This document shows positions 40,451-45,640 of a stretch of DNA of 64,000 nt, piece by piece. The first letter of the stretch is position 1. The number at the start of each line of letters is the position of its first letter. The stretch is from Flexistipes sp. (GTDB taxonomy: Bacteria > Chrysiogenota > Deferribacteres > Deferribacterales > Flexistipitaceae). The stretch is from positions 186,001 through 250,000 of the forward strand of contig NZ_JAXKVW010000002.1 of assembly GCF_036172515.1 (NCBI RefSeq). The letters run 5' to 3'. The notes beneath the pieces were generated by a model. That model had not been told where the DNA came from and did not search any database. It worked only from the letters and a program-made list of their open reading frames with translations. Made by a program: the position numbers and the translations under genes.

Positions 40451-42103
40451 ATGTTATTCAATAAAAAATATAATGTAACAATAAAAAACAGAAATATTAC
40501 ACTGGAAGCAAAGTCCGGTACCAATCTTTATAAACTTTTGAAAGAAAATGATATTCCCATATCTTCCCTTTGTAACGGAAACGGTCAGTGCGGCAAATGC
40601 AAGGTGAAAATATCATCTCCGGCCGGAGGGGAAATCAATAAACCCACCAAAAAGGACCGTCTGATTTTAGCGCTGATGAATCTGGAAAACGGCTACAGGC
40701 TTGCCTGTGAATATATCATCAGATCAGATATTGTTGTGGATACCGAAGAGTGGAATGTTTCTTCCGGCAAAGATCCGGATATACTTGGAGTAAAAAAGAA
40801 AAATAAAGATGCGGCTGAAGAGGAACAAAAACCTGCTGAGGAAATCAAAGTGAAAGATGAAGAGCCAGGCCCGGAGGAAGATTTTGAAAGCGTGGAATCT
40901 TCCGAATCCCAAAATCAATCTGAGTATAAGGCAGATTATGAGCCTGAGGTTAAAGAAGGTGAAGAGGGGGGAGTTTCGGTTGAAGAGGATGAAGATCAGA
41001 CTTACGGTGTCAGGGATGGCTTGCTTCTTATCCAATATCCCGGCGGTGTGAAATATTATGTGTATGCAGCAGGGATAAACAATATCGCATCCGAAGGTCT
41101 GGTTAAAATAAGTGAGCCGCTTACCGATATTCTTGACAATAACATACTGTCTGACTTTATTCACGATAATATAGATATTCCCGATTTGGACAGAGTGATT
41201 ATAATTCTGGACAAGGAATACTTTAACGGTGAAATATTTTTTAAGCTTGTCAACTACCATTCTTTTGAAATCGGAACACTAAAATGTGAAGTGTTGCAGC
41301 CCTACAATGACCCTAAAAATCTGCTGACATTTTTAAGGCTTCTTAATTCTGTTAATGGGCAGAATCTTCAGGTTGCGCTGGATAATCTGAGGTTTTCTTA
41401 TTTTTTGAAAGACGGCATTTTTTACTTTTTAAATTCTGAGTACGTTTCCGATACTATAGATATAGACAGACTGCTCACCACAGGCAAAAATCCCATTATT
41501 GATATTGCAGACGATTTGACTCATGTAACAATGAAGGACGATTTAAAGGAACCGGATTCCATCGCTCTGCCCGCATTGCTGAAAACAATCAAAATTCTCA
41601 TGAGAATAGGAGCAGTCAATAACAATTTTGTTCTAAAAGACAGAAATGAATTGGTGGATGAGCTAAAACTGGAGCATCTGGTCAAGTTTTCAAAGAGAAA
41701 TGAAGGTAATATGTTTTATATCTACAGGAAGAAGGATGTTGAAATATTTCTGAGTCAGCAGATGCTTGACCAGCTGAGGGAGCTGAAAATATATCTGATG
41801 ACACTGACTGATTTTGTTCAAAAAGAACTGGGCAATATCGAAAACATAATAATACAGAATCTTACCCACTATGATTATCTGGTGAACAATCTCTTCGATT
41901 TATCAATACTGCCCAAATATTATTCCAAAAAGACAAAATTTTATTCAGGGGATCCCACTATTCTGGCTTCCAAGTTTTTTACAGAGCAGGATGTTAAAAC
42001 GTTCATTGAATCAAGAATAAGCGATATGAGAGAAATTGAGCTTTATAAAAATGAAGAGTTTAACAAAAGGTATGATAAAATAGAGCGCAAACTTACTTCT
42101 TAA
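40451..42103 (+). CDS. 2Fe-2S ferredoxin-domain protein with acidic linker and unknown C-terminal domain
   Basis: 550-aa protein. Residues 1-95 are a plant-type 2Fe-2S domain with ligands Cys 41, 47, 50 and 86 (C-X5-C-X2-C-X35-C), similar to the N-terminus of corrinoid-reducing activators. Residues ~110-185 are a strongly acidic, Glu-rich linker. The remaining ~360 residues are well-folded-looking but match no family I know. No transmembrane segments. It follows the ABC ATPase by one base and ends convergent (11 nt overlap) with a CheY-like gene. Possibly a redox-linked regulator. Confidence 0.7.
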   Translation: MLFNKKYNVTIKNRNITLEAKSGTNLYKLLKENDIPISSLCNGNGQCGKCKVKISSPAGGEINKPTKKDRLILALMNLENGYRLACEYIIRSDIVVDTEEWNVSSGKDPDILGVKKKNKDAAEEEQKPAEEIKVKDEEPGPEEDFESVESSESQNQSEYKADYEPEVKEGEEGGVSVEEDEDQTYGVRDGLLLIQYPGGVKYYVYAAGINNIASEGLVKISEPLTDILDNNILSDFIHDNIDIPDLDRVIIILDKEYFNGEIFFKLVNYHSFEIGTLKCEVLQPYNDPKNLLTFLRLLNSVNGQNLQVALDNLRFSYFLKDGIFYFLNSEYVSDTIDIDRLLTTGKNPIIDIADDLTHVTMKDDLKEPDSIALPALLKTIKILMRIGAVNNNFVLKDRNELVDELKLEHLVKFSKRNEGNMFYIYRKKDVEIFLSQQMLDQLRELKIYLMTLTDFVQKELGNIENIIIQNLTHYDYLVNNLFDLSILPKYYSKKTKFYSGDPTILASKFFTEQDVKTFIESRISDMREIELYKNEEFNKRYDKIERKLTS

Positions 42104-42467
42104 GTATATCTGCCACTGCTTCCTTCAAATCCCTGGCTCTTACTGGTTTGTTCAGAAATGAAACCACGCCCATCTCTTTGGTCTTTTTGTATGTTTTGAA
42201 TGTTCCGAATGCCGTGATAACAATAACCCTTGCTTCCGGGTCGAAATTTCTGAGTTTTTCTATAAAAGTCATGCCGTCCATTTCAGGCATACGCAGATCC
42301 GTGACAATTACCTGGTATTCTTTTCTTTCAGCCTTTTTGAGACCTTCAGCGCCGTTTTGGGCAACGTCCACATCATAGCCGTCAATTCTCAGAACTTCCG
42401 CATAGCCGAGTCTGGTGTGCTCCTCATCATCTACTACCAAAACGCTGTAATCGTTCATATCACTCAT
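42093..42467 (-). CDS. CheY-like single-domain response regulator
   Basis: 124-aa receiver domain. Acidic pair VVDDEEHTR, phospho-acceptor Asp in VIVTDLRMPEMDG (residue ~55), Thr in VITAFGTF and Lys in LNKPVRA. There is no output domain. It lies 5 bp after the tandem-Hfq gene in the same direction, so the two probably share a transcript. Its cognate kinase is not obvious. Confidence 0.9.
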   Translation of the reverse strand: MSDMNDYSVLVVDDEEHTRLGYAEVLRIDGYDVDVAQNGAEGLKKAERKEYQVIVTDLRMPEMDGMTFIEKLRNFDPEARVIVITAFGTFKTYKKTKEMGVVSFLNKPVRARDLKEAVADILKK

Positions 42468-42472
42468 CCGGG

Positions 42473-42976
42473 TTACCTCTCACCGTCATATTTTATTATT
42501 TCACCGCTTTGATAGAGAGGGTATATCGTTGAGATAGCGGTCTTGTAAATCAGTTGCTGCCTGTCCTCATATGTCGTAAGAAGTGTATAATCATCAAAGC
42601 CCACAAGCAGACCTTTAACCTTTACACCGTTTCTCAGGAAAGCCGTTATCGGAGACTTGGATTTCCTTACCTCATTGAGAAATATATCCTGCATAGGCGG
42701 GCGCATGTGCTTGGGATGCTTTCCCTGGTGCATCTGATAGTATATTTTGCTGATATATTCTATATCTATAACATTTCTTGCAGCGGCTATTGTAGCCAAA
42801 TCCTGTTTGTAAATATTTGTTTTGATATCGCAGTCATCTATAATTATATTGTACTGATCAAAACCGACGATTTTGCCTCTGAATCTCTCTTTGTTAGATA
42901 AAATAAAGAGTAAAGGCACATCACGGGTGCGCGCATTTTGCAAATAAACAAACTCAACCTGAGCGTATAAAGACAT
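42473..42976 (-). CDS. Tandem Hfq-domain protein (two Sm domains)
   Basis: 167-aa protein made of two Hfq/Sm-like domains. Domain 2 (~residues 94-157) is clear: FLNEVRKSKSPITAFLRNG, VKVKGLLVGFDDYTLL and the Sm2 motif YKTAISTIYP. Domain 1 (~8-68) is diverged but parallel: FVYLQNARTRDVPLLFILSN, FRGKIVGFDQYNIII and IYKQDLATI. Ordinary Hfq has one domain and forms hexamers; a tandem could form a trimer of dimers. It probably binds RNA. It sits with a CheY-like gene and next to tRNA-Leu. Whether a single-domain Hfq also exists cannot be seen here. Confidence 0.75.
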   Translation of the reverse strand: MSLYAQVEFVYLQNARTRDVPLLFILSNKERFRGKIVGFDQYNIIIDDCDIKTNIYKQDLATIAAARNVIDIEYISKIYYQMHQGKHPKHMRPPMQDIFLNEVRKSKSPITAFLRNGVKVKGLLVGFDDYTLLTTYEDRQQLIYKTAISTIYPLYQSGEIIKYDGER

Positions 42977-43108
42977 TTCCCCACCTATTAAATATCTCTA
43001 TACTATAGACTTTTGTGTTTTTTGTCAACAAAATATCGTTATCAGCCGGATTGCGCCCTGTTGCCAACATTTAGATTGAAAATTCCGGCTGAAAAACTCT
43101 TTTATTTA

Positions 43109-43379: not shown

Positions 43380-43628
43380 TGTCAAATATAACAATTAATA
43401 ACAAGGAATTACAACAAATACACTATAAATTACGACCAATAAAAATCAATAACCACGATTAACTATGAAGTTAAGGAACCCACAGACTTCCTCAACCGTC
43501 TCAACTTTATCAACCACATCAACGGTTTCAACCGTCTCAACCCCCTCAACTTTTTCAACCTCTTCAACCTATACCTATACCTTTGCCTCTACCTCAACCT
43601 CAACCTCTGCCTTTCCCCGCCTTTCCCC
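43380..43628 (+). repeat. Degenerate 10-mer, 9-mer and 6-mer repeats before MntA/HepT cassette 1
   Basis: From 43380 to about 43465 A-rich AATAACNANN-like decamers occur (AACAATTAATAACAAGG, AATCAATAACCACG). From about 43488 to 43570 there are nine or so 9-mers of form NTCAACNNN in register, including the palindrome ACGGTTTCAACCGT at 43522-43535. From 43570 to 43618 CCTNNR hexamers follow (CCTATA, CCTATA, CCTTTG, CCTCTA, CCTCAA, CCTCAA, CCTCTG). They end at the cassette's constant block. The stretch 43247-43380 is AT-rich with no feature I recognise. Confidence 0.8.
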
Positions 43629-43690: not shown

Positions 43691-44005
43691 ATGGTTTCTG
43701 CAAAAAATGAGCTGACAAAAGAGCAGATTCTTCAATACTTACGTGAACATAAAAAAGAATTATATGAGAAATATGGTGTCCGGAAAATCGGACTTTTCGG
43801 CAGCTATGCATATGGAGCAGCAAATAGTGACAGCGATATTGATATAGCAGTGGAAATAACCAGAAATAACAAAACGCTTCATAATTTTCTGAGCTTAAAA
43901 AGGGACCTGGAAGAAACTTTTGGCAGACAGGTTGATCTGGGCATTGAAAATAATTTAAAGCCATTTATTAAGGAAAAAGTTGAGCGGGAAATTATATATG
44001 TCTAA
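43691..44005 (+). CDS. mntA: MntA-like nucleotidyltransferase antitoxin, cassette 1
   Basis: 104-aa minimal nucleotidyltransferase. Active-site motif GSYAYGAANSDSDID fits GS-X10-D-X-D (residues ~40-54). In known MNT-HEPN systems this enzyme adds AMP to the HepT toxin and inactivates it. The first ~40 codons are nearly identical to cassettes 2 and 4; the sequence diverges right after the SYA of the motif. GGAGCTC precedes the ATG. It overlaps hepT by 8 nt (ATGTCTAA). Confidence 0.88.
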   Translation: MVSAKNELTKEQILQYLREHKKELYEKYGVRKIGLFGSYAYGAANSDSDIDIAVEITRNNKTLHNFLSLKRDLEETFGRQVDLGIENNLKPFIKEKVEREIIYV

Positions 44006-44342
44006 AAGGGATATAAGGCTTTTTCTCTTTGATATTAAAACCTCTGTGGATGCTGTCCAAAGTTATGTTGAAGGCATGAGCTACGATGACTTTATTAATG
44101 ACAGGAAAACTTACAATGCCGTAATCAGAGAATTTGAAATTATTGGTGAAGCAGTAAAACACCTGCCTTCTGATCTGCTTTCAAAATACAATGAAGTGGA
44201 ATGGAGTGATATAAAAGATTTTAGAAACCTGCTTATTCACGAATATTTTGGAGTTGATCTGGAAATCGTCTGGAATACTGTATGCTCCGATGTACCTATG
44301 CTAAAACAGGCTATAGAGACGATTATTACAGAAAATACCTAA
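43998..44342 (+). CDS. hepT: HepT-like HEPN ribonuclease toxin, cassette 1
   Basis: 114-aa all-helical HEPN/DUF86 protein. The RNase motif RX4HXY is present as RNLLIHEYF, near residue 78, with the AMPylatable Tyr. Other family motifs are DRKTYNAVIREFEIIGEA. ATG 43998 is chosen, overlapping the antitoxin stop; an in-frame start at 43980 gives no RBS. Intact. Confidence 0.9.
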   Translation: MSKRDIRLFLFDIKTSVDAVQSYVEGMSYDDFINDRKTYNAVIREFEIIGEAVKHLPSDLLSKYNEVEWSDIKDFRNLLIHEYFGVDLEIVWNTVCSDVPMLKQAIETIITENT

Positions 44343-44640
44343 AACATAATAACCCAATAACCAAGAATAACAACAAATAACTATTAATACACAATGAATA
44401 ACCAGCAATAACTAAGAATTAACTACGAATAACTATGAGATTACTTAAATCATAAACATTCTATACTTCCCCAAACCGCACTCTCTCAACCATCTCAACT
44501 TTATCAACCACATCAACGGTTTCAACCGTCTCAACCACCTCAACTTTTTCAACCTCTTCAACCTATACCTATACCTATACCTGTACCTGTACCTGTGCCT
44601 TTCCCTCTACCTCAACCTTTGCCTCTGCCTTTCCCCGCCT
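44343..44640 (+). repeat. 10-mer, 9-mer and 6-mer repeats between cassettes 1 and 2
   Basis: Starts with about eight AATAACNANN decamers (44347-44440; AATAACCAAG, AATAACAACA, AATAACTATT and others). Then 9-mers NTCAACNNN (about 44484-44565) with the palindrome at 44516-44529. Then about twelve CCTNNR hexamers: three CCTATA, CCTGTA, CCTGTA, CCTGTG, CCTTTC, CCTCTA, CCTCAA, CCTTTG, CCTCTG, CCTTTC. The order 10-9-6 is as in cassette 1, but the number of hexamers differs. Confidence 0.85.
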
Positions 44641-44708: not shown

Positions 44709-45020
44709 ATGCCCGCTGCAAAAAATGAGCTGACAAAAGAGCAGATTCTTCAATACTTACGTGAACATAAAAAAGAATTATATGAGAAATATGGTGTCCG
44801 GAAAATCGGACTTTTCGGCAGCTATGCAAGGAATGAAAACAAAAAAAGCAGTGATATAGACATAGTCGTAGAGTTAGAAAGTGACAATAAATTCAGAAGT
44901 TTTTTTGAGCTAAAATATTATCTGGAAGAATCTTTAGATATGGAAGTAGATTTAGGTATAGAAAGTGCTGTAAAAAAGGAAGTGAGAAACCAGATAAACC
45001 GGGATATAATCTATGTATAA
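44709..45020 (+). CDS. mntA: MntA-like nucleotidyltransferase antitoxin, cassette 2
   Basis: 103-aa nucleotidyltransferase with GSYARNENKKSSDID (GS-X10-D-X-D). Residues 4-40 match cassettes 1 and 4 exactly; the rest is different (VVELESDNKFRSFFELKYYLEESLD), so it is a different allele downstream of a shared head. Overlaps hepT by 8 nt (ATGTATAA). Confidence 0.87.
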   Translation: MPAAKNELTKEQILQYLREHKKELYEKYGVRKIGLFGSYARNENKKSSDIDIVVELESDNKFRSFFELKYYLEESLDMEVDLGIESAVKKEVRNQINRDIIYV

Positions 45021-45360
45021 TCGTGATATAAATCTTTATATAAATGATATCCTCGATTCAGCAGAAGCTATTAAAGATTTTGTCGATAATATGGACTATG
45101 AAGATTTTTGCAATGACAGAAAAACTTTCAGTGCTACAATAAGGGAGTATATTGTAATTGGAGAGGCTATATCGTCAATTATGGAGATATTGGAGAAAAA
45201 GTTCCCTAAGTATCCTTGGCGGATGATTAAAGATTTTAGAAACTTTATTGTACATGAGTATTTTGGCATTGATAAAAAAATTGTCTGGGATTTAACTTCA
45301 AAAGAACTTGATGAACTGATAAAAAACATTCAAATTCTGAAAAAAGATTACGACATTTAA
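45013..45360 (+). CDS. hepT: HepT-like HEPN ribonuclease toxin, cassette 2
   Basis: 115-aa HEPN protein with RX4HXY as RNFIVHEYF and the DRKTFSATIREYIVIGEA motif. It is clearly different in sequence from the cassette 1 toxin. Intact frame, start ATG 45013 within the antitoxin end. Confidence 0.88.
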   Translation: MYNRDINLYINDILDSAEAIKDFVDNMDYEDFCNDRKTFSATIREYIVIGEAISSIMEILEKKFPKYPWRMIKDFRNFIVHEYFGIDKKIVWDLTSKELDELIKNIQILKKDYDI

Positions 45361-45640
45361 AAAAACAACGAGTAATAAATAACAGCCCCGTCTCAACCAT
45401 ATCAACTTCCTCAACCTCCTCAACTTTATCAACATGTTTCGTCCTTGTCCCTTGAACCTTGCTCCTCGGCCCTTTAAACTTAGTTCAATCTCAACCTTAT
45501 CAACTCTTTCAACCTCTTCAACCTATACCTATACCTTTACCTCAGCCTTTGCCTGTCTCACATCTCACGTCTAACGTTTTACGCTTTACGCATCACGCAT
45601 TACTCATCACGGCCTTCTCCACTTAGCACTTAGCACTTTT
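45361..45640 (+). repeat. 9-, 6- and 7-mer repeats after cassette 2
   Basis: Short decamer remnant (GTAATAAATAACAGC, ~45370), then NTCAACNNN 9-mers (45390-45435 and 45487-45525), CCTATA/CCTTTA hexamers (45525-45553), and from about 45555 heptamers of form NTNACGN (CTCACAT, CTCACGT, CTAACGT, TTTACGC, TTTACGC, ATCACGC, ATTACTC, ATCACGG), then two TTAGCAC units. There is no MntA gene behind this array; the AAA+ regulator follows instead. Confidence 0.8.

Follow-up and report, generated by a model that had tools for sequence, protein, structure and literature searches.

A tandem Hfq paralog encoded next to a receiver-only response regulator in Flexistipes and its relatives

Does a single polypeptide encoded at positions 42473-42976 of this DNA carry two Hfq domains, and what could such a protein do in a cell? 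A sequence-only reading of the window (the whole 64,000-nucleotide stretch analysed, from Flexistipes sp.) had placed there a protein of 167 aa with a diverged first and a near-canonical second Sm-like domain. Its coordinates and length were right, but the coding strand is the minus strand; internal stops interrupt the plus strand of the interval. The motifs quoted in that reading are present in the protein. The features of the locus are listed below.

42473-42976, minus strand: tandem Hfq gene, 167 aa, ATG start, TAA stop; PF17209 matched in two stretches
42779-42970, minus strand: domain 1 (residues 3-66), diverged Hfq/Sm domain; PF17209, hhalign, AF2 model with fold matches, residue table
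42695-42778, minus strand: linker (residues 67-94), predicted helix 72-82 at moderate confidence; alignment and model
42515-42694, minus strand: domain 2 (residues 95-154), near-canonical Hfq domain; PF17209, residue table
42476-42514, minus strand: conserved C-terminal tail (residues 155-167); ortholog alignment
42093-42467, minus strand: CheY-like receiver-only response regulator, 124 aa; PF00072, E 5.1e-29, found at 25 of 25 orthologous loci
43000-43028, minus strand: likely sigma-70-type promoter TTGACA-17-TAGTAT, ending 23 nt before the tandem start codon

Sites of the TTGACA-17-TAGTAT type occurred six times in the stretch against a mean of 4.9 in shuffles, i.e. not above chance. By eye, boxes resembling it were seen in the corresponding position ahead of the relatives' tandem genes. 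A tRNA-Leu or another upstream RNA was rejected as part of the unit, Rfam giving only a tRNA, on the opposite strand.

Two gene pairs of the MNT-HEPN toxin-antitoxin type, each a PF01909 nucleotidyltransferase with a PF01934 HepT-like ribonuclease, follow one another at 43691-44342 and 44709-45360. They are apparently duplicated, as a direct repeat of 244 nt (94%) covers the upstream stretch and the start of each. A 9-nt unit of the type TCAACCNNN is repeated in arrays before or behind each pair (43480-43617, 44462-44629, and 45381-45556).

Two Hfq domains in one chain

The whole protein matched the Pfam family Hfq (PF17209) with 119.6 bits in two stretches. When the halves were searched separately, domain 1 (residues 1-92) scored 38.6 bits (E 7.9e-10) and domain 2 (the last 76 residues) scored 85.6 bits (E 1.8e-24). 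All three values exceed the curated cut-off of 27 bits, showing that both halves of the chain are homologous to Hfq, as had been proposed. The protein also scored above the cut-off for TIGR02383. Upon alignment with hhalign to a profile of 12 single-domain Hfqs, domain 1 reached 97.3% (E 2.4e-11) and domain 2 reached 99.7% (E 1.2e-26). The RimP C-terminal SH3 domain, considered as a different identity for domain 1, was rejected with a score of 16.0 below its cut-off of 26.3.

The sequence-only reading had expected an Sm fold for residues 8-68, and the structure prediction did not contradict it. The AF2 model of domain 1 (mean pLDDT 81, core 91-94) consists of a helix (residues 3-17) and five strands, and Hfqs were its nearest neighbors among solved structures (lowest Foldseek E 1.7e-6). 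The best superposition was obtained with Aquifex Hfq (5szd), with a Z of 13.1 and an rmsd of 1.4 over 69 residues. The alignment from which the model was built had ten rows, of which six were viral-contig Hfqs and two were copies of domain 2; because it contained Hfq sequences, the model indicates compatibility with the fold more than it provides independent proof. A full-length model built from a two-row alignment had a pLDDT of 34 and was discarded. Domain 2 would likewise adopt the Sm fold, judging from its PF17209 score.

Residue conservation was tabulated for the tandem proteins after omission of four near-copies, which left 21 of the 25. The sites tabulated were known functional residues of Hfq on its proximal, rim, and distal surfaces. 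Using the numbering of the organism's own Hfq, position 57 was occupied in domain 2 by T, S, or N and in domain 1 by R, N, K, or Q, and the Hfq histidine was absent from both in 21/21 orthologs. The canonical rows of this table had been picked by a K-H/N-A pattern, which makes them insufficient as proof of the histidine on their own. A recount was made on single-domain loci that had all been fetched by the Hfq family search, independently of that pattern; the KHA signature was present in 30 of 30 and absent from the tandem domains. The Y-K-H-A motif marks canonical Hfq and is not needed to pass the Pfam cut-off. Because it is missing from domain 1 as well as domain 2, the tandem protein counts as a diverged paralog, not as a canonical Hfq. 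The second domain, described as near canonical, is thus less canonical than had been stated. The H57T variant of Pseudomonas aeruginosa Hfq (3inz) was among the Hfq-fold matches of the domain 1 model, so loss of the histidine need not prevent the fold.

Apart from the histidine, domain 2 retains Q8, D9, N13, R16, K17, and F39 in 21/21 orthologs, G29, V30, and K31 in 18-19 of 21, and N28 within the range of 18 to 21; the stretch QDIFLNEVRK is invariant. Domain 1 had been called diverged, in agreement with its lower PF17209 score (38.6 against 85.6 bits) and with its altered residues. E8 and F9 replace Q8 and D9, and D58 is present, in every one of the 21 orthologs. Its distal-face loop is replaced by a conserved basic NKERFRG sequence (K29, E30, R31, F32, and R33 in 19/21), where canonical Hfq mostly has G-V-K-L/I-E. 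The linker contains a conserved D-x-x-Y/F-I-S-K-x-Y-Y motif, with PP ahead of domain 2, and the C-terminal EIIKY is invariant in 21/21 aligned orthologs.

These patterns bear on whether the protein binds RNA. It could be a ring-forming scaffold whose usual faces no longer bind RNA and whose main role is to serve the response regulator as an adaptor: domain 1 lacks both classic RNA faces, domain 2 lacks the proximal histidine, and linker and tail are conserved about as well as the domains. We regard this as improbable, as 18 to 21 of the 21 orthologs retain N13, R16, K17, F39, N28, G29, V30, and K31 in domain 2, and the conserved basic residues gained by domain 1 suit nucleic-acid binding.

The dN/dS ratio of the whole tandem gene was 0.006 to 0.026 in five of 12 pairs of relatives, dS being saturated in the other seven. 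As judged from these comparisons, tandem Hfq is shown to be a real conserved gene under selection to keep it. The low ratio together with the conserved new residues implies that domain 1 has been reshaped and is not decaying.

Origin of the fusion and known tandem proteins

On a tree of single domains (57 rows, 62 columns; deep forks unsure), all first domains formed one clade and all second domains formed another, which points to probably one fusion, inherited since. The two domains of a Sphingomonas tandem protein (one protein, 62 columns) fell together in a starred group of four with two viral-contig Hfqs, apart from both clades. The tree thus favors an old and single fusion here, separate from that of Sphingomonadales, as far as domain sequences can tell. 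The fusion looks independent because the sphingomonad tandem keeps two canonical domains and sits elsewhere in the tree.

Tandem Hfq proteins had been described as noted rarely; they are in fact already in print for Sphingomonadales. The accessible text of PMC2877685 reports them for Zymomonas mobilis (ZMO0347) and six other species of that order and poses the question of a three-chain ring. The Sphingomonadales proteins likewise have two Hfq/Sm domains per chain, as in an example from Sphingomonas parapaucimobilis with two PF17209 stretches. In contrast to the protein studied here, both domains of this example retain QD/QE, YKHA, and an LQG distal loop of the canonical type. The Sphingomonas gene lies between those for a sigma-54-dependent regulator and HflX, whereas here the partner is a receiver-only regulator and the tandem protein is an extra paralog with diverged domains.

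Hfq2 of Burkholderia cenocepacia is also a longer second Hfq beside a canonical one. The model NF010691, which from its length would represent this Hfq2, matched the tandem protein only locally, in two stretches with 80.9 bits, far below its cut-off of 270. Hfq2 differs in that, instead of two Sm domains, it has a single structured region, at the N terminus, followed by a glycine-rich C terminus that is unstructured, according to the accessible text of PMC7074383. The same text mentions four Deferribacteraceae species with two Hfq-like proteins that are possibly paralogs. These two proteins are very probably the tandem gene product and canonical Hfq, but in those passages the double domain, the residue losses, and the response regulator are not mentioned. 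With canonical Hfq itself the tandem protein shares the fold, PF17209 and TIGR02383 scores above cut-off, and the rim residues of domain 2, and differs from it by two domains per chain and the missing KHA signature. No tandem Hfq with a response regulator was found in the open-access literature, which was covered partly through listings alone. Tandem Hfq itself being known, the apparent novelty lies in a divergent double architecture that extends across the order and is strictly paired with a CheY-like gene.

Distribution and coexistence with canonical Hfq

PMC7074383 refers to an early survey of Hfq distribution by Sun and co-authors. We searched 59 genomes with the Hfq family and 50 genomes of the phylum with the tandem alignment. 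The genome also contains an ordinary single-domain hfq of 74 aa on another contig, where the adjoining ORFs read as miaA and mutL (from sequence, no search). Full-length tandem orthologs were present in 25 of the 50 genomes of the phylum, and all 25 also hold a single-domain Hfq, which shows that tandem and canonical Hfq coexist. Among the 45 genomes of the order, these 25 have both, one (G017, 92% complete) has only canonical Hfq, and 19 have none. The latter make up families f3 (four genomes) and f6 (15), in which no Hfq match was detected in 19/19 genomes with completeness of up to 98%. The only named relative found was a metagenome-assembled Deferribacteraceae bacterium with 89% identity.

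In a sample of 384 genomes (50 in the phylum and 334 outside, with possibly few or no Sphingomonadales), matches to both domains were confined to the 25 tandem genomes, and no other match started before model position 44 of 167. In viral contigs, none of the 74 pattern matches was confirmed as a tandem relative. Among 72 plasmid records with a match, one covered at least 80% of the query and was a Sphingomonas tandem. A 151-aa protein of family f9, which belongs to another part of the class (L052 4998-5453, L053 4722-5177), was rejected as a tandem, its N terminus matching domain 1 with 0.2%; its C terminus is domain-2-like (82% probability). No response regulator was found behind its gene at these two loci, and the family also has canonical Hfq.

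Each of three further loci (L128 2354-3427, L129 2118-3124, and L130 2065-3053) contains two adjacent genes for proteins with a C-terminal Hfq domain with YKHAI. They come from three genera (G059, G207, and G346) of one family outside the phylum, and each genome has a further Hfq match elsewhere. In some of these proteins the N-terminal region gave weak helix-turn-helix-type matches below cut-off (GntR, Rrf2, and MarR). A pair of fusions of a DNA-binding-like region with Hfq would be unusual.

Coexistence raises the question of whether the two kinds of Hfq share a ring. Tandem chains might form no ring of their own and instead join canonical Hfq in mixed rings, modifying or dampening its activity. 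Tandem genes never occur without canonical hfq (25/25 genomes), and since neither tandem domain has the proximal histidine, insertion would presumably weaken the U-binding pore. On the other hand, canonical Hfq is also found without the tandem in the phylum (family f10 and G017), and a chain with both repeat halves is the simplest route to its own closed ring. Although mixed rings containing canonical Hfq are equally allowed, we consider it rather unlikely that the tandem chain acts only in this manner.

The response regulator and a possible three-chain ring

The CheY-like gene had been assigned to the transcript of the tandem gene. This agrees with its position: it adjoins the tandem gene on the same strand, starting 5 nt past the tandem stop codon, so that a common transcript is presumed. 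PF00072 covers residues 9-118 of its product, which has no output domain. At each of the 25 tandem loci, including that of the window, the tandem gene is directly followed on the same strand by an orthologous receiver-only regulator, with a possible start codon that lies at most 14 nt ahead of the tandem stop or at most 6 nt past it. The phosphorylation-site residues D13, D14, D57, T85, and K107 are kept in all 25 regulators, and around the first helix DDEEHTR, G21, Y22, and E24 are invariant. A DNA pattern for DDEEHTR occurred once each in 25 of 57 genomes, exactly those holding the tandem; the reversed control pattern was found in none of the 57. Tandem and regulator were thus present or absent in step in 57/57 genomes, which shows a strict linkage. 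The genes upstream vary by family (dnaN-recF-gyrB-like in f5 and others elsewhere, the names being read from sequence), so the two genes do not simply belong to some larger conserved block.

A protein of 550 aa, with a 2Fe-2S ferredoxin domain at its N terminus and an otherwise uncharacterised sequence, is encoded at 40451-42103; it was matched in 46 of 47 genomes searched. Its gene is convergent to the tandem operon and lies nearby in 20/25 loci. It was rejected as a partner, since 18 of the 19 genomes of the order that lack an Hfq match retain it, from which its independence of the tandem follows. On the tree of this protein (32 rows), families f3 and f6 lie together; as the lineages without the tandem/regulator pair group there, their joint absence of the pair may be a single event.

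Adjacency alone shows no interaction, and operon linkage alone is no proof of contact between tandem Hfq and regulator. The regulator could be a passenger, co-transcribed for shared timing and acting on unrelated targets; the Sphingomonas hfq likewise adjoins a gene for a sigma-54-dependent regulator, and we know of no reported contact in that case. This is possible, but we doubt it in view of the linkage at translational-coupling distance in 25/25 loci while other neighbors change, and of the joint presence or absence across the 57 genomes. The strictness of the linkage suggests that the regulator modulates the proposed ring.

We therefore return to an auxiliary Hfq paralog made of two fused domains, each specialised differently. 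A closed ring is expected because the chain combines the Sm fold with two repeats. Most likely, three chains would close into a pseudo-hexameric ring with six Sm domains in alternation. In such a ring, domain 2 would supply an intact rim and most of the distal face, while domain 1 would contribute an altered proximal face, along with NKERFRG as a basic loop on the distal face. This would give three near-normal rim/distal sites and three basic ones, with no histidine at the pore, and a site make-up of this kind would imply a choice of RNA differing from that of the canonical Hfq of the same cell. The phosphorylated regulator most likely would bind the ring or the conserved linker or tail and so control it. 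The trimeric ring, its RNA binding, and its control by the regulator are what we infer from these patterns, and the chances of the reading as a whole, an auxiliary Hfq with two specialised domains in a three-chain alternating ring tuned by the regulator, seem to us evenly balanced. More speculative, and rather unlikely, is the specific proposal of direct control of an RNA-chaperone ring by a two-component system: the receiver, once phosphorylated, would bind a ring of three plus three alternating Hfq domains and change the RNAs that this ring matches, so that bacteria of the order would have a signal-gated second hub for sRNAs beside canonical Hfq.

Whereas the Hfq rings of bacteria consist of identical subunits, the LSm/Sm rings of eukaryotes are built from different ones. 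An Hfq that is fused and has diverged asymmetrically is a natural intermediate with which to test how ring positions divide the work of RNA binding. If the regulator touches the tandem Hfq, the pair would link two-component signalling directly to regulation by sRNAs.
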